Source: Dastarcus helophoroides (lineage: Eukaryota > Arthropoda > Insecta > Coleoptera > Bothrideridae). From it: a DNA stretch of 64,000 nt. The notes beneath the pieces are model-generated. The model did no database searches. It was not told where the DNA came from and saw only the letters and a program-made list of their open reading frames with translations. Below are positions 24,785 through 51,840 of the stretch, piece after piece. Where the stretch lies: assembly GCA_028583605.1 (NCBI GenBank), contig CM053336.1, positions 28,564,312 to 28,628,311 of the forward strand. Reading direction: 5' to 3'. The position numbers and the translations under genes are program-made. How positions within the stretch are numbered: position 1 is the stretch's first letter; every line of letters starts with the position of its first letter.

Positions 24785-24786
24785 TT

Positions 24787-26656: not shown

Positions 26657-26668
26657 ACAAACTTGCAT
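26657..26668. repeat. LINE target-site duplication, right copy
   Basis: ACAAACTTGCAT, identical to 21702-21713. Confidence 0.92.
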
Positions 26669-29600: not shown

Positions 29601-30095
29601 TTAGAATTATCAAAATGGTTCATGTATGATTTTCATTATAATTATATGTTTCCAAAATACGGTAAAAACTTAATTTTAAATTATATGGATACAGACTCAT
29701 TTATTTACGATGTAAAAACAGATGACTTTTACAAAGATATTGCTCCAGATGTTTTTAAGTTGTTCGATACTTCTAATTATAACGTTAATAATGTGTACAA
29801 TTTACCGATTGTTAATCACAAACAAATTGGTAAATTTAAAGATGAAAATGGAGGAAATATAATGCACGAATTTATAGGTTTAAGATCAAAAATGTATTCT
29901 ATAGACGTAGTTGATAAGAAAATAATTAAAAAGACTAAAGGAATTAAAAAAACTGTAACTGACTATTTAGATATAGAACATTATAGGAAATGTTTATATA
30001 ACAAAAAGTTATTTTACCACAGCATGTTCGTACTGAGATCTAATATCCATGAAATTTATACTCAACCTAAAAGTAGAATTAAAAAACTACAATAG
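26669..30095 (+). pseudogene. polB: Polinton protein-primed family B DNA polymerase, main body
   Basis: Continues the zinc-finger exons interrupted by the LINE. Landmarks: the 3'-5' exonuclease motif VVYADFECLL (about 27745), a Cys/His cluster CHICEKTLGI...DHCHTSGKYRG...HNDCNLNYR (28045-28150), FFHNLSNYDCHLFI (exo II), polymerase motif A YLDVNLYGWAM (about 28940), the NQLYGKTLED motif B region (about 29380), and motif C LILNYMDTDSFIYDV (about 29675) with both catalytic Asp. Lesions: TGA at 28397 followed by a frameshift, a frameshift near 28770, a TAG at 29144 and a frameshift near 29260. It would replicate the element from a protein primer; this copy is dead. Confidence 0.92.
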
Positions 30096-30268
30096 GTTTA
30101 AAATTTATTTTTAGATTAACATTTTAGGATATTTTTATATTATACATACATGTGTGTTAGTGAAGTTATTACAATATGTATGGAATATTAAAATAAACTA
30201 GAGTTAAACATTTTTTGTTTTAATATACGTATAGTTACATAAATTATATTGCAAAAAAATATCTATGT

Positions 30269-30810
30269 TTAAAACATCTTTTCATTATCAAGGAAATATT
30301 TTAAGAAGAAAACATTTTCCAAAGTACAAGTTTTTTCATGAGTGAGGCACCTTATCGTTGTAGGATATTTTCTTTTCAAAACTTTTAAACTGTCACATCC
30401 TATTTCATCCATATTGATCGCTCGAATTTTGTTATTGAGAATTTCTTCCACCCATTTTGTCTTTTCCAATCCCTTTACGTAAACTGTTGTTTTTGGTTTG
30501 ATGTTTTTAATCAAGAAAGATTTTACACTTTTGTATGTTATAGATCCGCAATTCCAAGCCAAATCATGGTAATTATTCTCCAACCATTTAACTTCTTTTT
30601 TTCTTTTTCGATTAAAGTAGAGAAATCATATGGAGGTCTTATAATAAAAGTTTGATATTCGAACATTTTGTACAATACACTTAATTCTTTTAATATGAAA
30701 TTATTATGAATATCTTTAAAACCTTGCACGTCGATGATAATAAAATGTTTTTGATTAAAATCAACCATCGCAAATAGGTTAGGGTTACGAAAGTAACGAC
30801 AACGAAACAC
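30269..30810 (-). pseudogene. Polinton-associated protein of RNase H/exonuclease look, one frameshift
   Basis: Two overlapping minus-strand frames (30810-30538 and 30583-30269) form one protein with a one-base shift in an A/T run near 30590. The start HFIIIDVQGFKD is a strand with a catalytic-type Asp; later PPYDFSTL, then NNYHDLAWNCGSITY, and TVYVKGLEKTKWVEEIL. I recognise this as an uncharacterised protein seen with insect Polinton-like DNA. The ribonuclease H-like fold is my inference from the IIDVQG strand and the spacing of acids. It lies convergent to PolB with a 170-bp AT-rich gap. Confidence 0.5.
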
Positions 30811-31008
30811 TAACCAATCATTTTGCTGATGTCATTATTTATACACGCTAGAATATTAATATTTACATTAGTTTTTTTACATCTCCAGTTATAGGAGTAT
30901 ACTCTATTATTCTATCGTGCAATAATAAGCAAAATGCTGAAGTATAATCTCTGATACTGTCATTGTCGGTTTCAAATTCTATTGTAACGTCTACAGGTCC
31001 GCTTTTAA

Positions 31009-31476
31009 TTATTTCATTTTGATTTGAAATAATTTATAATCTAATGAATTTAATAACGGTCTGGATTTGCCCACGTTATAATAACATTCTTGAAATCTAT
31101 TATACATATAATACAAATCTGCAAAACGATTTTTATCGAATGAGATTTTTAAATTTTCATATGGATAAATTTCTGAATTTAAATAAACTTTAACATTAAC
31201 TAAATTATCAGAGTCAAATTCAGTAGCATTTTGTTTAGGAATATTAAATCTGTGCGTTTGCAAACCGAAAATGATGAATCTAGGTTTTTCTAACTGATTA
31301 CTTGTTTTTATGCGCCATACGTGATTCGTAGCTTTAGGTAAATTGGGATATTCATACAAATCCCAACTTCTAAATGACATCTGTAAAGGTTTTTCATACT
31401 TTGAATAGTTTTATACAATTTAAGCCGTTCGTTATCACTGAGAGTAACGTGAGTCATTTTCCAGAATATTTTAGTA
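31009..31476 (-). pseudogene. Polinton major capsid protein, C-terminal part (separated by the Tigger)
   Basis: The frame 31380-31009 starts SFRSWDLYEYPNLP and contains KTSNQLEKPRFIIFGLQTHR and an acidic jelly-roll-like region, typical of the second half of Polinton capsid proteins. The stretch 31381-31476 encodes the preceding helix in a frame one base off, so a single-base indel near 31383 also breaks it. The remainder of the protein lies at 34120-34696. Confidence 0.8.
31475..31476. repeat. Tigger target-site duplication TA, left
   Basis: TA here and at 34120-34121 flank the Tigger ends exactly, the canonical Tc1/mariner/pogo duplication. Confidence 0.85.
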
Positions 31477-34119
31477 GAGGGAAGTCACCAAATATGGAAT
31501 ACCATTTTGTTTTAGGGATATAAAAAAAAACTTCATAGAAATGAAAACAGTTTAATGTTATTACTAATCAGTCATACATTTATATGTAGTAATTAACAGC
31601 CTTTAATCAAATATATTAGTTATTAAATTACAATCTAACACAAAAACCAAAATTACAAATAAGTAACCAAATATGGAATAGGTACCCATATATGGAATAT
31701 AAGCATAAATCATCATATCAATAACAAAAATAGACATAAATATCTATGAGATCAAATAATTAAAAATAACATATTGTGATAAATGAAAGAAGTTACTTAA
31801 TTCACTTGCAAAAGTCACAGATCCAAGTATCAAACTCTGGACCAGCACAATCATAATGTGCCCAGAGCCCACACATTAAGCATTTAATCCAGCTTTCTCC
31901 ACTTTTATCCATGGAAAAAAGTCTTGAACAGAACATACATTCTGCATCAGCAGAGTCAGGAGATACTTGGTCCATCAACTCATCATGTTCACTGCCTTCA
32001 TCAAACTGGATATCGTCCTGTTCCTCAGAGTCTTCTTCTTCCCAATCATCCTTATTTTTCTTCGTTTGTTTCTTTCTCTTCGCAGTTTTCTTCTTATTCT
32101 TTGTCTTGACTAATTTACTTTCTTTTTCTTGTCTCTTCATATTTTTATTTACTAAATCATTTTTGTAGGGTGAAGATGTTATGGCTGCTGCTACAGCAGC
32201 TTTTCTTCCTCTGTTAGATACTTTTCTTCGTTTCTCTGGTGCTGGACTTATGGCATGCGGAGACACCAGACCCAAACTGCTGCGATTAAGCCCGGAAGTC
32301 GAGGGTGCAGGTTCAGGTTGTACATTAGCAGTTGTTTCTGGTACAGGTATTTCTATCAGAACTTGACCAGTTTCAGATCTTGATTCCAGTGGAGTGATAT
32401 TGGTTGTACAACAGCATTTTGTTGCGCAGCAATAAAGTCCACATCACTGAACACATTTTTATTTAAAGGCCATAATCCAGTGACTTTGAACCCGTTGGCT
32501 GCAATTTCACCTGTTTGTACTTTCAAATAGGATTTGCCAAACAGCTCCACAATATCATATGGACTTAGAGGTCTGTTGTTGTTTCTAATCCATGCGTATT
32601 TCCTCACTGTAGTATGTTTTTAATGGCCCCATGAAAGTCTTGTCTAACGGCTGCAATTTGTGAGTCGTATGTGGAGGTAACGAAACTATGTCCACGTTAT
32701 TTTCCCTAGCAATATCTATTATATCGATATTGTGAGTATGACTATAGTGTCCATCTAGTATCAGTAAAACCCTTGATTCAGGAGTCGGGTTGATGTGTTG
32801 AATAAAGTGCCTGAACCAGTCTGTAAAGATGTTCATTTGAATCCACCCTGATGGATGTGCAACTCCGACTGATCCTGGAGGACAGCCTCTCATTAGCTGA
32901 GCCCTCATATTTTTTCTGGGAAAAATAATGAACGGTGGCACAAAATGACCAGTAGCATTCATGCAAACAACTAATGTCATAAGAGATCCTCTTTCTGCTG
33001 ATGTCAGTGCAGCTATCTGGCGTTTACCTTTGTGACCGATGATTTGTGGTATCTTACTTTGTACTATTATGAGGCCTGATTCATCCACGTTGTAAATTCG
33101 ATTTGGTAGATAATTATTTTTAGTGTAAAGCTCTTCAAGGAGGTTGAAAAAAGCATCCACTTTTTCTTTATCAAATCCAAACGCTCTGGCAAAAGATGTA
33201 CCAGTTGGTCTTCTTATCGCAAGTTTATCTTTATGACGATTTAAAAATAACTTTAACCACTTTTTTCCAGCTATACCTGATTTACCGAAGGGATTCTGCA
33301 AGTTGTTTCGCTTTGCTAGCATATACGCCATACGGCGAAGATCAGTTCTTGTTAAACCGTGAAACTTGCTCTCCATCATTAATATGTATTCTACTAGCTG
33401 ACGTTCAAGTTCGGAGCCCAATATAGTTTTTCGTCCCAATGTAGTAGCTGCTGCCACTTCTGGAGACTGTTCATCTTGTTGGCATAAACGAAATAAAGTT
33501 GTCCTAGGCACTTGAAAATGCTGTGCCGCTTTCAAATATCCCATTTTCTTTCCCCGGACGAATTTTATAGCTTCTGCCATTTTTTCTTCATCCCAGATTT
33601 TTCGTTTCTTGGTTGATTGTGAAGCCGACATTCTAAAAACAAACATAACATATAATTTTTTAAAGAAATAGTAGCAAGTACCTATCATGTGAAATATAAA
33701 GACCCAATTATGGAATATTCCATAATTAGACACCGACGACTGTCCATATTTGGATTTTTATACTAGTTCAAACTCGTCTAAATATTTTTTCAAATCACAA
33801 TATTTTAATGACTGAAGATCACAAAATGTTGAAATAAACATAATATCGATATACTAAATAGTATAACACTTATGTATACATACCTAATAACTGGTAATAC
33901 TCATTTATTACTTATCTTTAAAATTTTCTGCGTGACAACAAAACAAAACACGCCTGCCACACGTGTAGCGTTCGCGCAACTGACACGATGGTGTGAGTGC
34001 GGTAGTAAATAGACCGAATGAAACAAAAGATGGTCGTGTGTTGCGTTTCATATTTATATTTTTAGAGAAATTAAGGTATTCCATATTAGGATACTATTCC
34101 ATATTTGGTGACTTTCCTC
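31477..34119 (-). mobile_element. Tigger/pogo-type DNA transposon, 2643 bp, inserted in the capsid gene
   Basis: The TIRs start GAGGGAAGTCACC / GAGGAAAGTCACC and share AAGTCACCAAATATGGAATA. A TA duplication flanks the element. Internally the CCAAATATGGAATA word recurs about 195 bp from the left end (31672-31686), with related ATTATGGAATATTCC and CCATATTTGG words near 33710-33755. These are subterminal repeats that probably bind the transposase. It encodes a transposase on the minus strand with two frameshifts. Confidence 0.9.
31802..33733 (-). pseudogene. Tigger/pogo transposase with C-terminal PHD-like finger, two frameshifts
   Basis: The N-terminal psq/CENP-B-type HTH reads RKIWDEEKMAEAIKFVRGKK and GYLKAAQHFQVPRTTLFRLC. 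A second HTH region and the DDE nuclease follow: IYNVDESGLIIVQ (first D), SRVLLILDGHYSHTHNIDII (second D) and LPPHTTHKLQPLDKTFMGPL (third D). The frame ends near 32585; [20 protein letters not shown] is in a second frame and [13 protein letters not shown] onward in a third. So single-base indels lie near 32600 and 32395. The tail is basic, then acidic (KDDWEEEDSEEQDD), ending in CMFC...WIKCLMCGLWAHYDC...CDFC, a PHD-like zinc finger. The transposase cuts and pastes at TA sites. Confidence 0.88.
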
Positions 34120-34121
34120 TA
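34120..34121. repeat. Tigger target-site duplication TA, right
   Basis: Right-hand copy of the TA flanking the transposon. The TIR complement GGTGACTTTCCTC ends at 34119. Confidence 0.85.
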
Positions 34122-34696
34122 ATATTCAACTTATAATTTTCACCATCATAAACAACTACGTTATTGTCACTCTTTGCTCTAATTAGGATTAATTCATGTT
34201 TACAATTTGGAATTACTTTTTTATAATCTTCGGCAAATCCTAAAAGCATCCATAAAGGCACGCAAAAGTTAAAATATCCATTTATGTTTTTCATACATCT
34301 GGAATTATCCAAAGACCATCCTGCGTTAAGCAAAGAATCGCTTTCCTCCTTAGTTAAAGAAACGTAATTTTTCAAGGTTGTTGTTATTCCAACATTTCTG
34401 CAATGATCAATTTCAACACCATTCAGTTCGTAACGAATTTCATCAAACATCATAGGTACACAATTGTTACTGAGTAATATTTGAGGATTATAAACACCTT
34501 TATCATCTAACAGAGATCCTTCTATATATAAATAACTTTCGCATGGTAGTAAGAGCAAATCTTGATTTTGTATACATATGCGAATATTATCGTTTGCGTT
34601 AAACGATTCTATGAACGGAGAATAAGAATGGTACATTTTATTGTTAATCGTTTCATCGAAACGGGGTGATGATAAAATATTTAGATATTTACTCAT
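34120..34696 (-). pseudogene. Polinton major capsid protein, N-terminal part
   Basis: The frame starts with ATG (SKYLNILSSPRFDETIN) at 34696. It contains NDNIRICIQNQDLLLLPCES, FDEIRYELNGVEID, RNVGITTTLKNYVSLT and WMLLGFAEDYKKVI, the conserved strands and helix of Polinton double jelly-roll capsid proteins. The frame is cut at 34121 by the Tigger. Capsid genes support the view that Polintons can form virions; this copy is broken by the insertion and by a frameshift further on. Confidence 0.88.
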
Positions 34697-35137
34697 TGCG
34701 TAATTGTATTCCGATAGATTTAAAAAAAAAATTATTTTCCTCTGTTAAAGGAATAAAAGAAGTAACTGGAGACGAAGTTTTTTTTTATCTTCTTCGATTC
34801 ACTTCTAAAGAGTTACTGACTCTTTTGGAAAATAAACTATCGTATTTTTTGTTTTTAGTTTTATTAAAACTATTATAAATCCCTTAGATTCCGCCTTTAA
34901 AGAACACGACATTGCATATATTTCAAACGATAGAAAAGTTAGAAATCAAGCGGACCTACGTCTTGCCGAAAAGGCTTGGCAAAGGGTAAAATCGAAAGAT
35001 TCAAAAATTGGTAAAAAAATAAATGCTTGGTTAATAACGAATATTATGAAATCTAAAGCAAAATTAGGCATGGGAATGAATTCCGATAAGCGTAATTGTG
35101 CTAAAAAGAAACGTAATATGAAAAAAAGCGCAGAAGT
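34690..35137 (+). pseudogene. Polinton phospholipase A2-like minor capsid protein
   Basis: A divergent start from the capsid gene. An upstream frame (34666-34878: YSLRNCIPIDLKKKLFSSVK, VFFYLLRFTSKELLTLL) ends at a stop. The next frame reads NPLDSAFKEHDIAYISNDRK, then AEKAWQRVKSKDSKIGKKIN and KAKLGMG with a basic tail (KKKRNMKKS), stopping at 35137. The HD-x-A-Y signature matches the catalytic His-Asp of parvovirus-type PLA2 domains found in Polintons, where it is thought to breach endosomes. The calcium-loop part expected before it is not readable. Confidence 0.7.
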
Positions 35138-35140
35138 TTA

Positions 35141-35632
35141 ATGACTCGCAAGAAAAGTCGAATAAAATACAATAACATTTTACATTTGAATAATATTTTA
35201 AAACATTTGATGATAAAATCAAAATCTGCTATAAAAAGAAAAAATCCTCCAAATGTAAAATCAGCTATCAAATTAGCATTAAATGAATCAAGAAAGGTTG
35301 CTGCAGGAAAGAAATTAAAACAACCATTAAGTCGAATTATACCCGAACCTAAAAGTGGAGGTATTTTGCCTTTCTTAGTTCCCTTATTTGCCGGCTTATC
35401 AGCTCTAGGGTCATTAGGCGGAGGTGCTGCTGCAATCGCTAGAGCTGTAAATAGCGCTAAAAATGCCCAAAAACAATTATCCGAAAGTCAGCGACATAAT
35501 AAACATATGGAAGCTATAGCCGTGGGAAAGGGTTTCTTCTTGAAACCATATCGTAAAGGTCTAGGATTGTATTTTAAACCAAAAAACTATGAAACTTGCT
35601 ACCCTCGAGACCCTAAGATGAAAACGATTTAA
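35141..35632 (+). CDS. Polinton small hydrophobic capsid-type protein (pX/pVI-like)
   Basis: An intact 163-codon frame starting ATG four bases after the previous stop. A basic N-terminal half (KSAIKRKNPPNVKSAIKLAL, KKLKQPLSRI) leads to a glycine-rich membrane-active segment GGILPFLVPLFAGLSALGSL followed by GGGAAAIARAVNSAKNAQKQ, then GKGFFLKPYRKGLGLYF. This matches the adenovirus pX/pVI-like protein of Polintons, which is packaged with DNA and cleaved by the element's protease. It lies between the PLA2-like gene and the protease, as expected. It is one of the few intact Polinton ORFs here. Confidence 0.75.
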   Translation: MTRKKSRIKYNNILHLNNILKHLMIKSKSAIKRKNPPNVKSAIKLALNESRKVAAGKKLKQPLSRIIPEPKSGGILPFLVPLFAGLSALGSLGGGAAAIARAVNSAKNAQKQLSESQRHNKHMEAIAVGKGFFLKPYRKGLGLYFKPKNYETCYPRDPKMKTI

Positions 35633-36510: not shown

Positions 36511-36514
36511 ATAG
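36511..36514. repeat. Gypsy target-site duplication ATAG, left
   Basis: ATAG here and at 42322-42325 flank the two LTR ends exactly. Confidence 0.85.
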
Positions 36515-36880
36515 TGTAACGCAATGTAAATAGATGAAATAGGATTTAGAATAGAATTGTAGAATTTAGTAAATAAAAAAAGTTTCTAGAAGCTTCTAAT
36601 AAGGGGAAAGCGGCCGCGATAACGAAACAAACGGCAGATAAGCGTTCCAGAAATTTCGGCATTCGATAAGCCTTATCTGCCGAAAATTCTGGAAGCCCCG
36701 GGCCGAAACTATAAAAAGGCGGTCAGTTTTCCCTCGAGTCAGTCAGTTAGAAGCAAGTTGGTTTGCAATTAGTAAATAATTAGTGAGTTACTGTTCAGTT
36801 GAAATATGCCGAGTTAATTCAGTAATAAAGTGGGTATAATCTATCACGTGTATCAATTCGAACCGATAACGCACGTAACA
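36515..36880 (+). repeat. Gypsy 5' LTR (366 bp)
   Basis: Starts TGTAACGC and ends GTAACA. It contains GCGGCCGC, a TATA-like CTATAAAAAGG at about 36708-36718, a probable initiator region around TCGAGTCAGTCAGTTAG (36734-36750) and an AATAAA-like TAATAAAGTGG near 36822. Interleaved inverted repeats lie at 36632-36694. Confidence 0.93.
36708..36750 (+). promoter_or_regulatory. Gypsy LTR core promoter
   Basis: CTATAAAAAGG is a good TATA box. About 25-35 bases downstream, CCTCGAGTCAGTCAG contains repeated TCAGT, the insect initiator consensus. The same arrangement is kept in the 3' LTR. Transcription should start near 36740. Confidence 0.65.
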
Positions 36881-36881
36881 T

Positions 36882-36898
36882 TTGGTGTCAGAAGCGGA
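36882..36898 (+). other. Gypsy primer-binding site
   Basis: TTGGTGTCAGAAGCGG directly follows the 5' LTR after one base. Same class as the isolated PBS at 13154-13170. Confidence 0.8.
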
Positions 36899-37014
36899 AT
36901 TATTCGTGGATTGTGCTTTATTACTCGAAAAAAAATTCGTGCCAGGTGCCGTAGTTGACTATCTCGGACGTTTTAAACTGTTAAATAGGTATACGAGGCG
37001 CGTCAAATAAATTC

Positions 37015-38397
37015 GTGAACATTCAAATACGCTTTATGGATACGAGATTAAAATCGGCGAAAATGGAACAACAAATGCAAGCGTTATTAGCAATGTTTAA
37101 AGAACAAGCAGAGGAAAGACGACAAGAAAAAGAACAAGAGGAAGAACGACGACGACAAGACGAAGAACGAAGACGACAAGAAAAAGAACAGGAGGAAGAA
37201 CGAAGACGACAAGACGAAGAACGAAGACGACAAGAAAAAGAACAGGAAGAAGAACGAAGACGACAAGAAAAAGAACAGGAGGAAGAACGAAGACGACAAG
37301 AAAAACAAGAAGAAGATCAGAAATGGAATGCGGAAAAACAAGAATTGCATAGTCTACTAGCAAATATAACTGAAAAAATGGGAGCCGACGTTACAAAAAT
37401 GAAAGAAGAAGTGAAAGAACAAATTAAAGGAATGAGAGAAGAAATGCAAGAAGAGATTGACGAAGTCAAAGAAGAATTCAACAGCAAGCTTCTTGATTTG
37501 ACAAATGCAACAAAGAGGGAGATCAGCAACATAAAAAATAACATGAAAAAGTTGCTAAGTGGACAAAGCACACAACATGAATCCGAAAGTGTACCTGCTA
37601 GTTCTTCCCAAAAGGTAAAACCTCCGACCTATGACGGAAAAACATCCTTCCACACCTACAGAAAACAGTTCAAAGCTGCTGCTAAGGCCAATCAGTGGAC
37701 GGAAAAAGCAAAGGCAACCTCATTAGTGGTATCCCTGCGCGGAGATGCTCTGGAATTACTCCGAACTCTATCGGATCAAGAACAAGCCAATTATGAAGAT
37801 CTAGTTAGGGCTTTAGAGCTGAGATTTGGAGACCAACTTTTGCAGCAAGTTGTCCAGTCGCAGCTGCTAGTAAGAAGACAGAAAAGTGGAGAAACGCTGC
37901 AAGAATTAGAGGCTGAAGTTAGAAGATTGGCGTACATCGCCTATCCAACAGCACCAACCGACTTTCTGGAACTCCACGCAGTTAGAATCTTCATAGAAGG
38001 GATAAGAGACCCGGAATTTCAGAGAGTAATACGCCTGTCAAACGTCCGAACATCAAGGGAGGCACTAATTAGAGCTTTGGAGGTTGAAGCCGCTTACAAG
38101 GTTTCAGAGCCAGGGGCGTCACGCAGAATAAGGAAATCAGACATCGAAGAGGCGACAAATGACCCTGATCTCGTGAACATAAACGCCAACATGAAGGAAA
38201 TGAACGCGAACATGAAGAAAATGGACGGGAGCATGAACACTAACTTGAAGAAAATTGACGCGAGCATTCAGGAACTGGTGGGGAGCCTCAAAGGCAAATC
38301 CAACAGAAGCACATGTTATAACTGTGGCAAACCGGGGCACTTCAAGAAAGATTGCAGGTCAGCCCCAAGAAGTCGACAAGCCCCACAGGAAAACTAA
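37015..38397 (+). CDS. gag: Gypsy Gag
   Basis: An intact frame of 460 codons; the first codon of the open frame (AAC preceded by GTG) may not be the true start and the ATG at 37036 (MDTRLKSAKMEQQ) is more likely. Residues about 30-105 are a Glu/Arg/Gln-rich coiled coil made of repeated EERRRQ(D/E)KEQE units, followed by further coiled coil. The retrotransposon capsid domain (KPPTYDGKTSFHTYRKQFKA, SLRGDALELLRTL, FGDQLLQQVVQSQLLVRRQK) follows, and one CCHC knuckle near the end (CYNCGKPGHFKKDC). It overlaps pol by 46 bases. Confidence 0.92.
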   Translation: MNIQIRFMDTRLKSAKMEQQMQALLAMFKEQAEERRQEKEQEEERRRQDEERRRQEKEQEEERRRQDEERRRQEKEQEEERRRQEKEQEEERRRQEKQEEDQKWNAEKQELHSLLANITEKMGADVTKMKEEVKEQIKGMREEMQEEIDEVKEEFNSKLLDLTNATKREISNIKNNMKKLLSGQSTQHESESVPASSSQKVKPPTYDGKTSFHTYRKQFKAAAKANQWTEKAKATSLVVSLRGDALELLRTLSDQEQANYEDLVRALELRFGDQLLQQVVQSQLLVRRQKSGETLQELEAEVRRLAYIAYPTAPTDFLELHAVRIFIEGIRDPEFQRVIRLSNVRTSREALIRALEVEAAYKVSEPGASRRIRKSDIEEATNDPDLVNINANMKEMNANMKKMDGSMNTNLKKIDASIQELVGSLKGKSNRSTCYNCGKPGHFKKDCRSAPRSRQAPQEN

Positions 38398-41300
38398 AAT
38401 CAGCCAGTGGGAAGGGGCACTTACTGGCTGGTGTCGAGCAACGAGCCCCCAAAACTCTTTCCATCAAACAGATAAAAAGGATCATGGAAAGTTTAGTAGT
38501 TGCAGCCAGCATAGATGGAAGGAATGTACAGGCCACAGTCGACACAGGCGCCATGGTTACTTTGGCACGAAGGAACATTCTACCGTCGCAACCGAAGGTA
38601 CTGTCGCAAAGAATGGTCCTCAGAACAGTTACGGGAGATACTGCGCCAATTATAGGAGAGGCAGACGTCATGATTGGTCTGGGAAAACTAAGGATTTCGC
38701 ATCGGGTGTTAGTGGCAGATATCGAAGACGAACTGATTCTGGGGATGGACGTAATCAGGCAACATGGTTTTACTTTCGACCCAGCGCAGAACATTTTAAA
38801 GATTGGAAATGAAGAGCTTGTCCTGACTACACCAAAGGACACTCCAAAGGAGGTAAGACTGTTTGTGATGGAAGGAGATTTGGGCTGCTGCGTTGGATTA
38901 GTGGAACCGACTTATGACATTTCCAAGAATTTGCTAGTGGCGAGATCCGTGGTTAAAGCATCTCAGAAGGTACCTGTGAGAGTTGCCAACGTGTTCCCAA
39001 CAGCACGCTCAATCAAAAAGGGTACTACTCTGGCAGTCTGTACCCCGGTAGCCTCAATAAGCTCCTTGGGAGACAGTTGTGCGCCAGTACAGGAAACGAA
39101 GATTGGACAAGTCAAGTTGGAAGTGGACTTGAAACACTTGTCCAAGGAAGAAGTAGTTCTGGCTAGTTCATTTCTAAAGAAAAACCACGGCGTTTTTACC
39201 GATGGAGACCGAAATCTAGGAAGGACCGACGTAGTTCGACACAAAATCAACACCGGCGATGCAACACCTATTCGTCAACCCCCTAGAAGATTACCGGTGG
39301 TCAAGCAAGAGGAAGTCGCGGGACTGGTTAAGAAGATGATGAAGGATGGAGTCATCGAGGAGTCCAATAGTCCATGGTCTTCCCCTGTAGTCTTGGTTAC
39401 AAAGAAGGACGGGTCAACAAGATTCTGTGTCGACTACCGGAAATTAAACGACGTCACTAAAAAGGACAGCTACCCCTTGCCAAGAATTGATGACACCCTA
39501 ACGACCTTGTCTGGGCCCACCTGGTTTTCAACTTTGGACTTGAAAAGTGGATATTGGCAAGTAAGCATAGACCCCGACGACAAAGAAAAGACGGCCTTTT
39601 CATCTGGGAGTGGATTATATCAGTTCACGGTTATGCCTTTTGGACTATGCAACGCACCGGCTACTTTCGAACGTCTAATGGAACTGGTACTTCGAGGACT
39701 CGCTTGGAAAACTTGCTTGGTTTACCTAGATGACGTCATGGTGATGGGCAAGAGCTTTAAAGAACATTTGGAAAATCTTCAAGAAGTTTTCGACAGATTA
39801 AAGCAAGCCAACTTAAAGCTGAATCCAAAGAAGTGCTCTTTGTTCCAAAGGAAAGCAGAATTTTTGGGCCACACTGTATCAGCCGCAGGAGTTGAAACTA
39901 ATATCAGCAAGACTCAAGCAATTCGTGACTGGCCAAGACCCAAAGACAAACATGAACTGAGGAGTTTCTTGGGGCTATGTACCTATTATAGAAGATTTGT
40001 GAAAAGTTTCGCCAACATCGCTGCGCCGTTGCATCAACTAACGGAAGGAAGAAGGCCGTACGTCTGGACTCCCGACTGTGATACCGCTTTCCGGAAACTG
40101 AAGTCCGCCTTGTGCACGAGCCCTATCTTGGCTTATCCTCAGCGAGATGGAAAATTCGTATTGGACACTGATGTCAGCAACGTCGGCATTGGGGCTGTGC
40201 TGTCCCAAGTTCAAGGCGGTGAAGAAAGAGTCATCGAATATTACAGCAAGATCCTGACGAAGCCAGAGAGGAACTATTGCACCACCAGGAAGGAACTTCT
40301 TGCGATAGTGAAGGCCCTGGAACACTTCCACAAGTACTTGTATGGGCAAGAATTCCTTATCAGGGCAGATCATTCGGCACTTTCTTGGTTACTCCGAATG
40401 AAGAACGGGGAGGGACAGACGGCTAGATGGTTAGAAAGGCTTCAGCAGTATCACTTCAAGGTGCATCATCAACCGGGACGACAGCATAACAACGCTGACG
40501 CTTTGTCCAGAAGACCTTGTGGTGATTGCAAACACTGCAAACGAGTTGAGGACCATAAGGACATGGTGAATATAAGAGTCACTTCTGTCCAGCCAGAAGA
40601 CGAATGGACTGTTGAAGGTCTTCGGAAGCTACAGAGGAGCGACGCTGATATCGGACCCATATTGGAATGGAAAGAAGCTGGAGACAGACCGGAATGGCAA
40701 GAGGTTTCCGACAGAAGTCCAGCTCTTAAGAATTTGTGGGCTCAATGGAAATCCCTCCAGGTCGAGGACGGGGTATTGAAGAGAGCATGGGAAAGCGCGG
40801 ATGGAAAGCGTGTCAACTTGCAGTTGGTGGTGCCTCAGGAGAAGATTCCAAAGGTCTTGTGGGAGGTGCACAATGGGACTTCTGGTAGACAACTAGGGAT
40901 GAACAAGACCCTGGAGAAGGTTCGAAAACGGTTCTATTGGGTTAACTGCAGAGAGGACGTCGAGCGGTGGTGTCGGAAATGTGTCACCTGTGCTGCTTCC
41001 AAGGGTCCTCGTACGAGAACCAAAGGGGCTCTGAAGCAATATAATGTGGGAGCTCCATTTGAAAGAATTGCAATCGATATGGCAGGACCATTCCCAGCTT
41101 CAGACGATGGAAACAAGTACATCCTGGTGGCCATGGATTATTTCACTAAATGGCCTGATGCTTATGCCATCCCGAACCAGGAAGCCACCACAGTCGCAAG
41201 GGTTCTTGTGGACAACTTCATCTGTCGATTTGGTGTTCCCTTTGAACTACACTCGGACCAGGGAAGGAACTTTGAATCGGGGGTTTTCCAAGAGGTATGT

Positions 41301-41915
41301 TGTCTTCTTGGAATAAGGAAAACTCGAACAACACCTCTTCATCCACAGTCTGACGGAATGGTGAAGAGATTTAACAGGACCTTAGAGGAACATCTTTCGA
41401 AGGTCGTTACCAAACATCAGACCGACTGGGACCGACATCTACCACTGTTTCTGATGGCCTATCGCGCGGCAACTCATGAAACTACAAGTCAGACTCCGGC
41501 AAAAGTGATCTTCGGGAGGGAACTGCGGCTTCCGTGTGACTTGGTGTTTGGATCACCAAGGGAGGTCCCCAGGGAAACGATGGGTTTCGTAGATGACTTG
41601 AGGGAAGCGATACTGGAGACGCATGCTCTGGTCCGGACGAAGATCAACTTGGCGACGGACCGGATGAAGGCCAGATATGACGTGAATGCCAATCATGGTG
41701 GTTTCAGTGAGGGCGAGTTGGTATGGCTATACAACCCTCAGCGAAAGAAAGGAGTTTCGCCAAAGTTTACGCCATTTTGGGAAGGGCCGTACCAAGTGCT
41801 GAAGAGGATCAACGACTTGGTATACAGGATCCAGCGTAGCTCCAGGAGTAAAATGAAAGTGGTACACCTTAACAGACTATGCAAATTTAGTGGCGAAGTG
41901 ACTGATTGGAACTGA
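38352..41915 (+). CDS. pol: Gypsy Pol (PR-RT-RH-IN), open but with integrase active-site changes
   Basis: 1187 codons in the -1 frame relative to gag, so it is probably made by -1 frameshifting in the 46-base overlap. Protease: ATVDTGAMVTLA. RT: NSPWSSPVVLVTKKDGSTRF, FSTLDLKSGYWQV, GLCNAPATFERLM and YLDDVMVMG (YLDD). RNase H: FVLDTDVSNVGIGAVLSQ, RNYCTTRKELLAIV, IRADHSALSWLL. Integrase: zinc-binding region HNGTSGRQLG...CRKCVTC, where the second His of HHCC reads Gln; core AIDMAGPFP and LHSDQGRNFE give both Asp. The catalytic Glu in the usual GMVERFNRT reads Lys (GMVKRFNRT, codon AAG near 41361). A chromodomain-less C-terminus ends VVHLNRLCKF. PR, RT and RH look intact; strand transfer should fail. 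Confidence 0.95.
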   Translation: MQVSPKKSTSPTGKLKSASGKGHLLAGVEQRAPKTLSIKQIKRIMESLVVAASIDGRNVQATVDTGAMVTLARRNILPSQPKVLSQRMVLRTVTGDTAPIIGEADVMIGLGKLRISHRVLVADIEDELILGMDVIRQHGFTFDPAQNILKIGNEELVLTTPKDTPKEVRLFVMEGDLGCCVGLVEPTYDISKNLLVARSVVKASQKVPVRVANVFPTARSIKKGTTLAVCTPVASISSLGDSCAPVQETKIGQVKLEVDLKHLSKEEVVLASSFLKKNHGVFTDGDRNLGRTDVVRHKINTGDATPIRQPPRRLPVVKQEEVAGLVKKMMKDGVIEESNSPWSSPVVLVTKKDGSTRFCVDYRKLNDVTKKDSYPLPRIDDTLTTLSGPTWFSTLDLKSGYWQVSIDPDDKEKTAFSSGSGLYQFTVMPFGLCNAPATFERLMELVLRGLAWKTCLVYLDDVMVMGKSFKEHLENLQEVFDRLKQANLKLNPKKCSLFQRKAEFLGHTVSAAGVETNISKTQAIRDWPRPKDKHELRSFLGLCTYYRRFVKSFANIAAPLHQLTEGRRPYVWTPDCDTAFRKLKSALCTSPILAYPQRDGKFVLDTDVSNVGIGAVLSQVQGGEERVIEYYSKILTKPERNYCTTRKELLAIVKALEHFHKYLYGQEFLIRADHSALSWLLRMKNGEGQTARWLERLQQYHFKVHHQPGRQHNNADALSRRPCGDCKHCKRVEDHKDMVNIRVTSVQPEDEWTVEGLRKLQRSDADIGPILEWKEAGDRPEWQEVSDRSPALKNLWAQWKSLQVEDGVLKRAWESADGKRVNLQLVVPQEKIPKVLWEVHNGTSGRQLGMNKTLEKVRKRFYWVNCREDVERWCRKCVTCAASKGPRTRTKGALKQYNVGAPFERIAIDMAGPFPASDDGNKYILVAMDYFTKWPDAYAIPNQEATTVARVLVDNFICRFGVPFELHSDQGRNFESGVFQEVCCLLGIRKTRTTPLHPQSDGMVKRFNRTLEEHLSKVVTKHQTDWDRHLPLFLMAYRAATHETTSQTPAKVIFGRELRLPCDLVFGSPREVPRETMGFVDDLREAILETHALVRTKINLATDRMKARYDVNANHGGFSEGELVWLYNPQRKKGVSPKFTPFWEGPYQVLKRINDLVYRIQRSSRSKMKVVHLNRLCKFSGEVTDWN

Positions 41916-41932
41916 TCGGGACGATCATTTCT

Positions 41933-41943
41933 AAGGGGGAGGC
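41933..41943 (+). other. Gypsy polypurine tract
   Basis: AAGGGGGAGGC lies directly before the 3' LTR (first base 41946), priming plus-strand synthesis. Confidence 0.8.
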
Positions 41944-41945
41944 AG

Positions 41946-42321
41946 TGTAACGCAATGTAAATAGATGAAATAGGATTTAGAATAGAATTGTAGAATTTAG
42001 TAAATAAAAAAAAGTTTCTAGAAGGTTCTGATAAGGAGAAAGCGGCCGCGATAACGAAACAAACGGCAGATAAGCGTTCCAGAAATTTCGGCATTCGATA
42101 AGCCTTATCTGCCGAAAATTCTGGAAGCCGCGGGCCGAAACTATAAAAAGGCGGTCAGTTTTCCCTCGAGTCAGTCAGTTAGAAGCAAGTGCAATAAGTT
42201 GGTTAGCAATTAGTAAATAATTAGTGAGTTACTGTTCAGTTGAAGTGTGCCGAGTTAATTCAGTAATAAAGTGGGTATAATCTATCACGTGTATCAATTC
42301 GAACCGATAACGCACGTAACA
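41946..42321 (+). repeat. Gypsy 3' LTR (376 bp)
   Basis: Same ends as the 5' LTR. It is ten bases longer because of TGCAATAAG inserted after AGAAGCAAG and one extra A in the early A-run. Confidence 0.93.
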
Positions 42322-42325: not shown

Positions 42326-43098
42326 TTTAAATCCAACATGAAAGATGCGTTAGCGTTAGAACGTATATCGAACCTATAACAAAACCTTTGAAAAAAATTT
42401 CAAAAGTAAAACAACCCTCATTACCGCTAACATCTAAAACTGAAATAAAAAAATGATTGTCACGAACAAACAAATCCTGTTAAAAATGAGAGCTTAGATG
42501 ATGTTTTTTACACTCAAAATTACGATAGTAATGATTCTGTTGTATCTGATAAAAATGATGACGGAAAGAAATAATTAAAAACAAATCTCTAAAAGATTTA
42601 GATTTAAAATATGGAATGCATTTTGATCCTGATGATCAAACATGGAAAATTGGAAGTAAACCTTTAACAATCAATGACAATAATATTTATTTAAACGGAA
42701 AAAATTATGAATTAACTGTTGGATTACGCGAATTATTATTTTTAAAAAACCTGATAAACGTAAATGTACACAAAATGATATTTCATTATATTTGGAAATT
42801 ATAAAATTGTCTAACTTATTAAATCGCAATTTTGATAACAAAAAACAATAGGCTGGAAATAGAAGCTATAAATATAATTTAATTAAAAGACTTCAAAGTA
42901 AATCTCATTCGGGAACGGGACTGATGGAATATTTTGAAAATAAAATAAATTATGTTTATTGGGACGATCCTAATGAAATAGTTGACAGACTTAAATTGTT
43001 ATTAGCATCGCAGCATGCTGGTCATACAAATCTCAATAACGAAATATATTCGATTCTGGAAGAATTAAGGGAAAAAAAATTATTATATAAATTATTAA
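42326..43098 (+). pseudogene. Polinton DUF8207-like protein, frameshifted
   Basis: The readable blocks are an acidic linker (SLDDVFYTQNYDSNDSVVSD), KYGMHFDPDDQTWKIGSKPL with NGKNYELTVGLRELLFLKN (42616-42750), a frameshifted middle, and KINYVYWDDPNEIVDRLKLL with LLASQHAGHTNLNNEIYSIL (42924-43060). The YWDDPNE-x-VDRL-x-LL-x-ASQ-x-AG motif is a widespread domain next to Polinton and herpes-like integrase genes. I know it as DUF8207; its function is unknown. At least three indels break the frame. The hairpin retroposon inserted just after its C-terminus. Confidence 0.7.
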
Positions 43099-43102
43099 TA
43101 TT

Positions 43103-43114
43103 ATGTATTTAAGC
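43103..43114. repeat. Target-site duplication of the hairpin retroposon, left
   Basis: ATGTATTTAAGC here and, identical, at 43485-43496, flanking the GC-rich insert. Confidence 0.85.
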
Positions 43115-43120
43115 AATCAC

Positions 43121-43178
43121 CGTTGTTAGTCGTACCAATGAAGGTGGATTGAGTAGCTTTCAATTGGTGCGACAACAC
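43121..43178 (+). ncRNA. Hairpin 1 of the array
   Basis: 5' arm GTTGTTAGTCGTACCAAT, 3' arm AATTGGTGCGACAAC. The pairing has one bulge and one T.G wobble. Apical sequence GAAGGTGGATTGAGTAGCTT then TC. Confidence 0.7.
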
Positions 43179-43182
43179 GCAA

Positions 43183-43243
43183 CCGAGGGTCGTTTATCGA
43201 CGAAGGTGAATTGAGTAGCTTTCGCCCGGTAAAAGGACTCTCG
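43183..43243 (+). ncRNA. Hairpin 2 of the array
   Basis: 5' arm CGAGGGTCGTTTATCG pairs with 3' arm CGGTAAAAGGACTCTCG through two wobbles and a bulge. Apical sequence GAAGGTGAATTGAGTAGCTT then TC. Confidence 0.65.
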
Positions 43244-43265
43244 CTAGCGCACCTAATAACACGAG

Positions 43266-43335
43266 CGCGGTCGACGGCACGCGCTAAAGATGGTGGACCG
43301 AGTAGCCTTCTTTAGAGTGACTGCTGTCGATCGCG
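43266..43335 (+). ncRNA. Hairpin 3 of the array
   Basis: 5' arm CGCGGTCGACGGCA...CTAAAGA pairs with 3' TCTTTAG...TGCTGTCGATCGCG: 14 outer pairs (two G.T) plus 7 inner pairs around a small internal loop. Apical sequence TGGTGGACCGAGTAGCCT, the most diverged loop. Confidence 0.7.
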
Positions 43336-43390
43336 GACGTCTGCCATCGGAGGTGAATTGAGTAGCTTTCGATCGGCGGTCTCCGCAGCT
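43331..43390 (+). ncRNA. Hairpin 4 of the array
   Basis: 5' arm GCGGACGTCTGCCATCG pairs with 3' CGATCGGCGGTCTCCGC with one bulge and a mismatch. Apical sequence GGAGGTGAATTGAGTAGCTT then TC. Its 5' arm overlaps the end of hairpin 3 by a few bases. Confidence 0.65.
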
Positions 43391-43484
43391 CACAAAATTA
43401 TCACCACAGTAATGTTCACTAAAAGACGGCGGTCAAAGGAACGAAAGTTTCGGAACTGCGTTAAAATACCAAAGATCCATGATG

Positions 43485-43496
43485 ATGTATTTAAGC
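43485..43496. repeat. Target-site duplication of the hairpin retroposon, right
   Basis: ATGTATTTAAGC, identical to 43103-43114. Confidence 0.85.
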
Positions 43497-43501
43497 TTTC
43501 A

Positions 43502-43545
43502 TTTGTATCATGTCTATTGATAATTTGTATCATGTCTATTGATAA
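43502..43545. repeat. Perfect 22-bp tandem duplication
   Basis: The 22-bp unit starting TTTGTATCATGTCTATTGAT occurs twice without a mismatch (43502-43523, 43524-43545), six bases after the hairpin element's right TSD. A recent slippage or repair event. Confidence 0.9.
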
Positions 43546-43592
43546 GTTCGGTCGATCACATTCAATTCATCCTGATAAAAATTTAAATAGAC

Positions 43593-43778
43593 TTGTGCAA
43601 TTCGTTGAAATTAGAGTTAAGACAAAAATTTTATTCCACAACAACTAAGTTAAAGCAAACACAAAAAGATCTTGATAGTATGAAAACAAAATTAATTGAA
43701 TTGGAAAATTCTATCACAAACGTAAAAAGTCGCCTTGCAAGTTTAGAAAATAAAATGTTAGAAACAAACCAAAAATAA
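43593..43778 (+). CDS. Small coiled-coil protein, Polinton accessory (fragment)
   Basis: The frame reads LKQTQKDLDSMKTKLIELEN and SITNVKSRLASLENKMLETN, a clear heptad-repeat coiled coil, ending 45 bases before the integrase start. The codons before about 43630 are in doubt because the upstream frame shifts (HPDKNLNRLVQFVEIRVKTK is in another frame). I do not know its function. Confidence 0.45.
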   Translation: MCNSLKLELRQKFYSTTTKLKQTQKDLDSMKTKLIELENSITNVKSRLASLENKMLETNQK

Positions 43779-43823
43779 GACATTCAAAGATTTTAGATAA
43801 AACGTACATGTAATTATACAGAA

Positions 43824-44733
43824 ATGAGTAAAATTCAGTTAGTTAACGAATTACATAAAGCTGCCAGAAAAAATTTTAAACGTAGAAGTGTGATTTTAAA
43901 AGGTCTTAATGATTTATGGCAAGCAGATTTGGTTGAAATGGGGGAATATGTCAAACAAAATAAAGGTTACCGGTATATTTTAACCGTAATTGATGCTTTC
44001 TCTAAGTTTGCTTGGGCTTTGCCGATTAAAAATAAATCCGCTAACGAAGTTGTTAAAGCTTAAAATCTTATGCAATGTTTCTCCTAAAAATTTACAAACA
44101 GATGGTGGCAAGGAGTTTAACAACGATAAATTTCATAAGTTAATGAAAAAATATAATATTAATCATCACGCAACGTTCAGTACATTAAAGGCTTCTATTG
44201 TGGAAAGATTTAACAGAACATTAAAGGGTTGGATGTGGAAAAAATTTAGTTTTAATGGATCCTATAAGTGGATTAATCTCGTTAAAGATTTAATTGAAAA
44301 ATATAACAATACAATTCATCGTACGATCAAAATGCGTCCGCGAGAAGTGAATAAATTTAATCAAAAACATTTATTAAAAACTGTATATAACAAAATTAAA
44401 GTATTTCCGCACCCAAAATTCAGAATTGGTGACAAAGTTCGCATAAGTAAATTCAAACATACATTTGAAAAGGGTTACACCCCAAATTGGAGTATGGAAG
44501 TTTTTACTATCGATGAAATTAAAAACACCAATCCTGTCACGTACATTCTGAAAGACGGAGAAAATAAAATTATTAAAGGAGGATTTTACGAATATGAATT
44601 ATTAAAAGCAAAACACCCTAATTCATATCTTATCGAAAAAATTTTAAAGAGAAAAGGAAATCTTTTATATGTAAAATGGCTTGGATTTTCCATCAAGCAT
44701 AATTCTTGGATAGATAATCGAGATCTTATTTGA
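43824..44733 (+). pseudogene. int: Polinton retroviral-type integrase with chromodomain, one frameshift
   Basis: Starts ATG at 43824 (SKIQLVNELHKAARKNFKRR). Catalytic triad: D in LWQADLVEM, D in NLQTDGGKEF, E in SIVERFNRTLKGWMW. One base is gained or lost near 44060 between VVKA and LKILCN, in the loop before the second Asp. The SH3-like region FRIGDKVRISKFKHTFEKGY is followed by a chromodomain at the C-terminus (YLIEKILKRKGNLLYVKWLG, NSWIDNRDLI), which would target chromatin. Stop at 44731-44733. All catalytic residues remain; the frameshift inactivates it. Confidence 0.9.
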
Positions 44734-45305: not shown

Positions 45306-46148
45306 ATTTTTTGATTTTTCTCAAAATGGGAAGAAGATAATTTGTTATTGTCTTGATGCAAGAAGAATGCAACCTAGACTACAAATTCATGCAGCCCTCC
45401 AGGCTATGGCGATGGCCATAGTTTCTGTATGGACCAATAGGTGGTAGTACTAAAGAGTCACTCGCTTGACGCCTGTGAATGTTTTAGTACTTACTTGTCT
45501 GAACATTTATTAGCATTCGAGTTGGATATACCAAACTGACGAGATCTAACAAGATCGAAACCGGTATTTGGTTTCCAAACCACGAATCTAATAAATGTTT
45601 CAAACCTATTGGTCTATGCATTATAGATAGAATCATTGTCTTGATGGTAAGTTTTTTTTTAATTTTATTTTTGTTCAATGTTACTTTTTTTTGTTTCCAG
45701 TTGTTGATTTTTTTAATTTTGGCTATTGTTTAACAGTAGAGTTCTGAAATTAATACATTTCAATTAATTATTTTTATCATTTAATTTAAAATGCGTTTAT
45801 TTAGGATTGCAATAAATATTTATGATTTTAAAGCAAATATTAAATAATTTTATAATACAATCTTTCTTAATTGCATTTTTTATGATTTTAATCTAAAGTG
45901 CGTTTATTTTCTTCTAGGGTTGTTTCGAGGATTTAAAAACAGTCGTCAGAGGCGTAAAGAGCTACGCATCAATAATGAGGACATCGAGACTTGTCTGTGC
46001 CGAACCTCTCCATATTATATCGACGATTTCGATTTTTTTTGCATCCCATGGATGCATATGGGTAGGTTCGGCACCCAACATCCAACTTTATTCCCCTGGG
46101 AGTACGAGGACTCCCAGGAGGAATTACTAAAATTATATTTTTAATTTA
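45306..46148 (+). CDS. Spliced-looking transcription unit, unknown product
   Basis: Intron-like patterns recur. TTTTTTCTAG|GATTTTTTG at 45305 opens a short exon that ends at TCTTGATG|GTAAGT (donor now at 45647, because the hammerhead element inserted exactly at the exon end). TTTTCTTCTAG|G at 45917 opens the last exon, which encodes FRGFKNSRQRRKELRINNED, then TSPYYIDDFDFFCIPWMHMG and PTLFPWEYEDSQEELLKLYF, stop at 46142-46144, then an AATAAA at 46150. The phrase TAATCTAAAATGCG(T)TTATTT occurs before two acceptors and, degenerate, near 45787, so the unit seems to have grown by duplication. I recognise no family. Confidence 0.35.
45347..45358. repeat. Target-site duplication of the hammerhead element, left
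   Basis: ATTGTCTTGATG here and at 45635-45646, both perfect. Confidence 0.88.
45359..45634 (+). mobile_element. 276-bp retroposon carrying a hammerhead ribozyme
   Basis: Flanked by a perfect 12-bp TSD. No ORF. The sequence is highly foldable: CTATGGC/GCCATAG hairpin (45413-45430), ATGGACCAATAGGT (45433-45446) pairing with ACCTATTGGTCTAT (45605-45618) as an outer stem, GTACTAAA/TTTAGTAC (45449-45490), and inside these a type I hammerhead. Short TSD-flanked units with a hammerhead are known from Penelope-like element ends and from animal retrozyme-like circular RNAs. This could be either; no Penelope RT or GIY-YIG frame is present in the window. Confidence 0.75.
45501..45601 (+). ncRNA. Type I hammerhead ribozyme, minimal stem III
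   Basis: The core is complete: CTGACGA at 45536-45542, stem II GATCT-AACA-AGATC (45543-45556), GAAA at 45557-45560, then CCGGTA with cleavage triplet GTA (cut after 45566). Stem I pairs ACCAAA (45530-45535) with TTTGGT (45567-45572), then after a TAT/T internal loop TTGGA (45522-45526) with TCCAA (45574-45578), and is extended by ATTCG/CGAAT and GAACATTTATTAG/CTAATAAATGTTTC. Stem III is only ACC/GGT with no loop; because ACCGGT is palindromic, two molecules could pair to form a dimeric active ribozyme, as described for Penelope-type hammerheads. Confidence 0.82.
45635..45646. repeat. Target-site duplication of the hammerhead element, right
   Basis: ATTGTCTTGATG followed directly by GTAAGT. 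Confidence 0.88.
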
Positions 46149-50214: not shown

Positions 50215-50733
50215 TGATGAAAAGCTTTACTAAAAACGAAATTTAGAGAAAAAAGTCGAAATTTTCAGATTAGGACAAAATTTCAGAAAAACGTCGAAAT
50301 TTTGAGAAAAAAACTCGAAATTTTGAGTTTAAAGTCGAAATTACGAGAAAAATGTAAAAATTTCGATATTAAAGTCAAAATATCGAGAAAAAAGTCGATA
50401 TTTAAAAAAAAAGACGAAAATGAAAAAAAAAACGAAATTTTGAGAAACAAGTCGAAATTTTCAGATTAAGGGCAAAATTTTAGAAAAGAGACGAAATTTC
50501 GAGAAAAATGTCGAAATTTGAGAAAAAAGTCGAAATTTGAAATGAAAAGTCCAAATTTCGAGCAAAATAGTGTAAATTTGAGAAAAAAGTCGAAATTTCG
50601 TGAAAAAGGTCGAAATTTCGATATAAGAGTCGACATTTCGAGGAAAAGGTCAATATTTGAGAAAAATTGGAAATTTCAAAAAAAAGTAGAAATTTTGAAT
50701 TTAAAGTCGAAATTTCGAGAATAATAATATTAG
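50215..50733. repeat. TCGAAATTT satellite array, block 1
   Basis: An irregular tandem array of units like GTCGAAATTTCGAGAAAAAA (18-21 bp, some with TTTGAG or TTCAGATTAAGG variants). Each unit is close to palindromic around AAATTT. The block ends where LINE sequence (50735) begins. Confidence 0.9.
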
Positions 50734-50838
50734 TTTATTAAGATGTATAAATAATACATATTTTTACATTGACAGGAAAACATTATTGGTTAACAAGAAA
50801 CATTCATTTTAACATAGACACCTAACTTTCTCTTAAAA

Positions 50839-51129
50839 CTAGACAAATTTTTTTTTACTTTTTATTTCATTTGACAGATTATTAAATAAAAACACACCCT
50901 TATAAAATAACGATCTATATGTCGATTCTTTACTAACAGTATTTATATATATATTACTACAGTTACGTGTTTCATAATTATGTACTTCGTTAACATTTCT
51001 TATATTGTACATTAAGTATTCTGGCAACAATCCTTTAATAATTTTATAAATAAATACCATAGTTTGATAAATAAAATAAATAAATAATAATAAAATATTG
51101 CTGTACAGACAGTGAGCCCAGACAATCAA
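50839..51129 (-). pseudogene. LINE RT C-terminal fragment
   Basis: The minus strand reads VFIYKIIKGLLPEYLMYNIR, NEVHNYETRNCSNIYI and SLFYKGVFLFNNLSNEIK, the extreme C-terminus of CR1/Jockey-type RTs (Y-K-I-I-x-G-L-L-P-x-Y-L ... F-Y-K-G-x-x-x-F-N-x-L). Satellite arrays bound it on both sides. Confidence 0.8.
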
Positions 51130-51149
51130 GCATCACATCGATTGGTCTG

Positions 51150-51840
51150 TTAACATTTCGATATTAAGGTCAAAATTTCGAGAAAAAAGTCGATATTTGA
51201 GAAAAAAGTCGAAAATTGAGAAAAAAAACGAAACTTTGGGAAAAAAGTCAAAATTTTCAGATTAAGGGCCAAATTTCAGAAAAAAACATCGAAAATTCAA
51301 AAAAAAGTTGTAATTTAGCACAAAGTCGAAATTTGAGAAAAAAGGTGAAATTTCGAGAAAAAAGTCGAAATTTTGAGACAGAAGTCGAAATTTCGAGAAA
51401 AAAGTCGACATTTCGAGAAAAAAAAGTCGAAATTTCCGAAAACGGTCAAAATTTCGACCCTTATTCTCGAAATTTTCGAGAAAAAAACAGGACATTTTGA
51501 ATTTAAATTCGAAATTTCGAGCAAAATGTTAAAATTTCGATATTAAGGCCAAAATTTCGAGAAAAAAGTCGAAAATTGAGAAAATAAAACGAAATTTAGA
51601 AAAAAAGTCAAAATTTTCAAATTAAGGGCCGAATTTCAGAAAAACATCGAAAATTCGAGAAAAAAGTTGAAATTTAAGAAAAAAGTCGAAATTTCGAGAA
51701 AAAAGTCGAAATTGCCGAAAAAGGTCGAACTTTTGAGAATAAAAGTCAAAATATCGAGAAAAAAGTCAATATTTAAAAAAAAGGCAAAAATTAGGAGAAA
51801 AAAAATGTTGAGAAAAAGGTCGAAATTTCGAAGAAAAAAA
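51150..51840. repeat. TCGAAATTT satellite array, block 2
   Basis: Same units as block 1. It starts about 20 bases above the C-terminal LINE fragment and runs directly into RT motif A sequence at 51841. In effect the array stands in place of RT motifs B to E. Confidence 0.9.

Follow-up and report, generated by a model that had tools for sequence, protein, structure and literature searches.

Four hairpins with a common loop and unrelated outer stems in the 3′ UTR of a young, apparently Jockey-like LINE

LINEs usually insert by target-primed reverse transcription, and how a LINE protein chooses its own RNA is, to our knowledge, understood in detail for few elements. A hairpin in a structured 3′ UTR is a feature of the stringent-type LINEs UnaL2, ZfL2-1, ZfL2-2, SART1 and R2. 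The available part of PMC5135761 places the stringent-type hairpin right at the end of the 3′ UTR, calls that of SART1 central, and states that UnaL2 requires a GGAUA-loop hairpin together with a pentanucleotide 3′ repeat. According to the accessible text of PMC4176376, exchange of the stem in ZfL2-1 leaves about half the rate and exchange of the loop leads to a dramatic fall, and the region of ORF2 between the endonuclease and reverse transcriptase (RT) domains binds the 3′ stem-loop, contacting the stem generally and the loop specifically. The LINE described here has in common with the stringent type its 3′ UTR stem-loops (four, predicted) and a 3′ end of short repeats without poly(A), the short repeat being a likeness to UnaL2 in particular; with ZfL2-1 it would share a loop that matters on a stem that can be exchanged. 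It differs from these elements in that a single hairpin is described for them in the portions of the sources available, whereas four hairpins with one loop accompany a Jockey-like ORF2 in this LINE. Recognition hairpins in LINE 3′ UTRs are already known, and the four-fold array with the same loop is a variant of them. Searches of the open-licence literature covered arrays of hairpins, structured retroposons, the letters of the loop and the tails of Jockey elements; no four-hairpin LINE tail came up among the papers listed, those with the loop letters being judged by their titles.

The window analyzed is a 64-kb stretch of DNA from Dastarcus helophoroides. The insert that carries the hairpins and its immediate surroundings are as follows.

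42852-43112, + strand: host sequence, the 3′ end of a Polinton-type gene (86-aa frame)
43103-43114, no strand: left target-site duplication, ATGTATTTAAGC, 12/12 identical to 43485-43496
43115-43484, + strand: GC-rich insert of 370 nt, identified through its genome copies as a 5′-truncated LINE copy with 3′ UTR only and the 3′ end CCATGATG
43485-43496, no strand: right target-site duplication, matching the left copy

The sequence-only reading of this DNA had proposed retroposition with a perfect 12-bp target-site duplication (TSD), and this was confirmed; a 12-bp word common to both flanks of the insert arises in 2 of 1000 flank shuffles. The Polinton-type frame that runs from 42852 has its stop codon at 43110-43112, within the left duplication. 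One database relative of the 86-aa frame was found, P0242, with 59% identity across 79 residues; its database sequence ends at the residue matching position 79, and the window frame stops 7 residues later. Relatives of the 86-aa piece were also sought in viral contigs, with none found there. As judged from these comparisons, the LINE copy entered a Polinton-type gene at its stop codon, by the target-primed route usual for LINEs. Polinton-like pieces occupy window positions 26663-35632 and 42852-44733. They include an endonuclease VII match in the frame 26663-28399 and a double-jelly-roll capsid at 34094-34696 (−). An integrase piece is also present; the rve domain is found in its relatives, and its chromodomain match is under the cut-off. 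Where relatives are named among the matches listed, they are proteins of fruit fly and blow fly.

A search of the host genome (539-Mb assembly, 50 contigs) with the insert returned 286 candidate copies. Forty were scored, namely the window copy and 39 others, which are 96-98% identical to it and cover at least 362 of the 370 bases each. When 30 copies including that of the window were fetched with their flanks, 28 were found to run upstream into a LINE ORF2, remaining colinear with copy L164 for 106 bases to the full 1.5 kb fetched; the exceptions, the window copy and L183, are both truncated inside the UTR. The upstream ORF codes for a reverse transcriptase (RVT_1, 4.5e-39, in L164). In L193, which is L164 extended, a 448-aa ORF1 with CCHC-type knuckles, recognized by eye, is directly followed by an ORF2 that is open for 808 aa and is then broken by a stop. 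The ORF2 frame continues past this stop and ends 5 nt before the UTR sequence found in the insert, and therefore the insert is the LINE 3′ UTR minus its first 5 nt.

Eight of the 30 copies are 5′-truncated within the fetched flank, at eight different points. Direct repeats of 7-14 bp, the short ones scored without a chance control, are present at seven of these eight, and none was found at L178. L171 and L183 are not independent because both sit in an alike target sequence. This sequence, ...TCTCAGAAGAGTTTCGCCTC..., is seen in the 3′ flanks of L171, L183 and L192, and a common GTCAGTTAGAGTCGGTGTAGTTAA stretch is present in those of L164 and L172. The 3′ ends have none to several ATG or GATT units: the end of the window copy recurs with few variants, (ATG)n or (GATT)n follows in several of the other copies, and reading of the listed sequences revealed no A-tail at the 30 fetched 3′ ends. 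Divergence of the 30 young copies from their own majority averages 1.3% and is at most 3.2%. An RT ORF upstream of the same 3′ UTR, variable 5′ truncation, TSDs and a constant 3′ end identify the element as a LINE.

A second LINE, Jockey/X-element-like, is located in the window at 22106-26233 (−), and its named matches among 120 listed are jockey, X-element and reverse-transcriptase proteins from beetles and a spider. The ORF2 of the LINE under study is 43% identical to that of this other element over 196 aa, and the two-ORF LINE appears Jockey-like when placed by way of this identity. As in Jockey/X-element-like arthropod LINEs, there are two ORFs, with CCHC knuckles seen by eye in ORF1 and an RT in ORF2; the short-repeat end and the hairpin-array 3′ UTR set it apart from them. 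No such hairpin or loop array was found in the 506 nt that follow the ORF of the window's other LINE, where the word GGAAGGTCTAAATC occurs twice. We consider it practically certain that the insert is a 5′-truncated 3′ UTR copy from a LINE that is young and multicopy, has two ORFs and appears Jockey-like. The array is a feature of the RNA of that LINE, the truncated window copy being without any LINE ORF.

The insert had originally been taken for a free-standing, SINE-sized mobile RNA, a reading that did not survive the genome search. Seen alone, the window copy does look complete, with its TSD and 370 nt, and insect SINEs (tRNA- and 5S-derived) resemble it in size, TSD and simple-repeat 3′ end, as described in the available part of PMC8010984. 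The insert differs from them in that its best Pol III A and B boxes are no better than those in shuffles and that it belongs to a LINE and does not form a unit of its own, as the continuation of 28 of 30 fetched copies into ORF2 indicates (40 of the 286 candidates having been scored). Stringent-type LINEs can have a partner SINE with the same 3′ end, and none was seen among the 30 fetched copies. The probability that it is a free-standing SINE-like structured retroposon is in our estimate close to nil. The case illustrates that 5′-truncated LINE tails can mimic new SINE-like RNAs when a single copy is seen.

The structure of the 3′ UTR, as predicted from the MFE fold of the + strand, comprises the following elements.

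43129-43173, + strand: hairpin H1 of 17 pairs, with its loop motif at 43143-43161
43184-43243, + strand: hairpin H2 of 22 pairs, with its loop motif at 43205-43223
43269-43332, + strand: hairpin H3 of 24 pairs, with its loop motif at 43292-43310
43333-43386, + strand: hairpin H4 of 20 pairs, with its loop motif at 43352-43370
43387-43484, + strand: 3′ remainder of the UTR as far as the ATG-repeat end, with little structure (274 of 500 shuffles fold as well)

The four hairpins have the loop GGTGRAYYGAGTAGC in common, with ACC in H3 in place of the ATT found in the other three. The loop word GGTGRATTGAGTAGCYTTC, allowing up to 3 mismatches, occurs at four places in the 64-kb window, all of them within the insert, against an expectation of 0.05 in the window, and 0 of 100 shuffles reach four. 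When the loop was kept fixed and the arms were dinucleotide-shuffled, 0, 2, 0 and 6 of 500 shuffles matched H1, H2, H3 and H4, respectively. These results uphold the four hairpins with a common loop proposed in the sequence-only reading; its description of the stems as completely different and pairing over 14-20 bp was right in that all four pair and the outer stems are unrelated, with no detectable alignment with each other, but the numbers of pairs are those given above and an inner stem is common to the four hairpins as well as the loop. The left arm of this inner stem reads GAAGG, GAAGG, GATGG and GGAGG, and the right arm is CTTTC in three hairpins and CCTTC in one. An inner mismatch in H3 (T, insert position 177) is private to the window copy, the family majority being A, which pairs. 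The central ten loop letters, GRAYYGAGUA, are predicted to be mostly unpaired, although for four of them in H3 the value is only 0.55-0.62.

Comparison of the arms between hairpins gave one result of 12 below 3% (the left arms of H1 and H2, 22 of 1000 shuffles). An ordinary tandem repeat with decayed stems, which had been named beforehand as an outcome that would speak against the proposal, does not describe the array, since the arms of different hairpins do not align. Each arm is, on the other hand, matched to its own partner: own arms pair with a mean of −29.7 kcal/mol versus −17.3 kcal/mol for swapped arms, with one common core used in all, and the true arrangement is the best of the 24 permutations. 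The fold is also specific to one strand. The insert with its duplications (393 nt) folds at −138.5 kcal/mol as the + strand (z −4.6, 0 of 100 shuffles as good), versus a z of −1.1 for the − strand, with 12 of 100 shuffles as good. Each hairpin includes 3 or 4 G.T pairs in the MFE fold, and stem imperfections are divided into 15 G.T versus 1 A.C (p 5e-4), or 7 versus 1 outside the common inner stem (one-sided p 0.035), in a test in which the arm limits were taken from the + strand fold and the stems have 4 other mismatches and 7 gaps besides. This asymmetry is expected if the + strand RNA, not the DNA, was kept paired, and the RNA-strand signal claimed earlier holds. No closing stem around the four hairpins was detected (327 of 2000 shuffles as good). 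A covariance model built from the four hairpins matches only those four in the window, the next best having an E value of 2.7. In pair counts across the hairpins, the covariation score is reached in 7 of 500 shuffles and the number of double-change pairs in 80 of 500, both resting on four sequences and on a structure derived from them.

Older copies were reached by looking for the loop with C as the next base, a letter selected for its absence from that position in all four known loops. This pattern occurs at two places in the genome, both of them copies of this UTR, L195 (95% identical) and L196 (78%), and a genome search with L196 as query yielded further old copies. The old set comprises 11 of 58 distinct copies, 79-91% identical to the young majority. 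The loops are seen in 10, 11, 9 and 11 of the 11 old copies at H1 to H4; GGTG-R-A-YY-GAGTAGC is kept in most, with some other single changes and one H1 loop with a 4-nt gap. The old and young majorities differ at 25 positions (sites without a 60% majority were left out). Paired stem positions account for 13 of these and the four 15-nt loops for 3, each at an R or Y letter; the other 9 are elsewhere. The 13 stem differences hit 12 pairs, leaving 9 paired and 3 broken. One of the retained pairs is a double change, from T-A to C-G, and the other eight are one-sided exchanges between G.U and Watson-Crick pairs; one of those broken is a C.A in H2 that 14 of the 30 young copies share. At the level of single copies, the 11 diverged sequences include 13 double changes that keep the pair, versus 13.1 in shuffles, with breaks in 97 of 882 pair cells. 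Decay after insertion presumably explains much of this breakage. Mutation rates were 0.008 in the loop, 0.012 in the stem and 0.021 elsewhere for the 30 young copies, and 0.092, 0.168 and 0.118, respectively, for the 11 old ones, figures that mix post-insertion decay with shared variants and carry no weight.

It had been suggested that the stems changed while staying paired. This can be said of 9 of the 12 altered pairs between lineages, but the copy-level double changes do not exceed those in shuffles, and the other outcome named beforehand as speaking against the proposal, a genome-wide absence of compensatory stem changes, is nearly the case, the one found between lineages being that from T-A to C-G. 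Covariation between the old and young lineages, as read from these alignments, is weak. Support for structural constraint comes from pairing in the young family, which is arm-specific and tolerates G.U, and to a weak degree from covariation. The lack of an excess in copy-level double changes and the broken pairs would suit a decayed tandem repeat, a DNA foldback or a cruciform without RNA function. Against this stand the failure of the arms of different hairpins to align, own-arm pairing far above that of swapped arms, and imperfections that are mostly those tolerated in + strand RNA, and we regard such an explanation as improbable.

The mechanism that we favor is that the LINE's own ORF2 protein would dock at each of the four hairpins in the LINE RNA, in keeping with the earlier idea of the loop as a binding site used repeatedly. 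This protein would read the constant 10-nt loop on top of the common inner stem; it would need only some stem below the loop, so that the outer stems would be free to be any paired sequence. Once bound, it would start reverse transcription at the short ATG/GATT-repeat 3′ end, in place of a poly(A), and four sites could raise the chance or the avidity of binding in cis. We judge ORF2 docking the most likely mechanism, and somewhat more likely than not to be the correct one, because a protein that reads only loop and inner stem predicts unrelated outer stems for a multiplied site. The RNA-strand signal, the confinement of loop differences between old and young copies to R or Y letters, the lack of an A-tail and the precedent of ZfL2-1 and UnaL2 are also in its favor. 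Points against it are that the hairpins lie some 100-350 nt away from the 3′ end, the fact that the precedent is in the L2 clade and the LINE here is Jockey-like, the weak covariation, and the frequency of the H2 C.A among young copies.

The distance from the 3′ end bears as well on the possibility that the hairpins bind the LINE ORF1 protein (gag-like, CCHC) and constitute a packaging or RNP-assembly signal rather than a site for RT docking. A multi-site array far from the 3′ end would suit a packaging signal, and the knuckles seen by eye in the 448-aa ORF1 of L193 are compatible with it; loop-specific recognition of a 3′ hairpin is, however, documented for the ORF2 proteins of other LINEs in the parts of the literature available, and we consider ORF1 binding unlikely. 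Just below it we rank the recruitment of a host RNA-binding protein acting on the stability, export, localization or translation of the LINE RNA, which we likewise doubt. A constant loop and inner stem with free outer stems is the usual appearance of a protein-bound hairpin, and the array has no match in Rfam: a search of the whole window at the gathering score gave nothing in the insert, and one of 43000-43600 with E up to 5 gave only a thermometer family, with an E value of 0.95, outside the insert. We know of no host factor with this site, and the loop followed by C is found genome-wide only in the two UTR copies mentioned above, a pattern that probes one neighboring base.

Returning to ORF2 docking, a further step would be to regard the quadrupled recognition hairpin as a multivalent platform, and the RNA as a natural stem-swap experiment in which only loop and inner stem are read; this we put forward tentatively, as possible but somewhat short of probable. 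A young multicopy LINE with four hairpins of the same loop and different stems allows a direct test of loop-only recognition, and the array is also suited to asking whether several binding sites in one RNA help.

The loop was also sought in other collections. In IMG/VR the 19-mer loop was found at 0 places; a search for paired loops gave 3 places, which by eye are repetitive sequence and not hairpin arrays. A looser paired pattern gave 44 stretches in IMG/VR that were filtered by folding; the most similar case, L128, was rejected with a z of +1.5, and among the best 10 of 43 rows the other passing stretches have different letters around the word. From the GTDB contigs at least 118 stretches with the 15-mer loop were folded, and the best of them, L103, apparently lies in a ferrous-iron transport gene and was taken as chance. 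Phages gave 2 weak matches, with an E value of 0.1, and plasmids none.

Metazoan retrozymes and hammerhead Penelope-like elements are comparable to the insert as small structured RNAs spread by retroposition, as presented in the available part of PMC7229834. They differ from it in that no Rfam family, the hammerhead included, is found in the insert. A separate hammerhead ribozyme lies in the window at 45518-45589 (+); it matches Rfam HH9 with 33.9 bits, under the gathering score of 52, with an E value of 2.1e-6 in a 1.3-kb search, and is the single such match in the window. Its stem III is very short, a form of hammerhead known from Penelope-like elements. The hammerhead sequence is also present 3′ of the LINE copy L182, and so it occurs elsewhere in the genome.

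Two other features of the window were recorded. A Gypsy-type LTR element spans 36513-42321, with LTRs at 36513-36880 and 41944-42321 that are 95.5% identical. It has a gag-like ORF, and its polyprotein of 1187 aa includes RT, RNase H and integrase and matches protease weakly. At 50237-51839 a degenerate 20-bp repeat (near GTCGAAATTTCGAGAAAAAA) forms two arrays, which are separated by about 450 bp.
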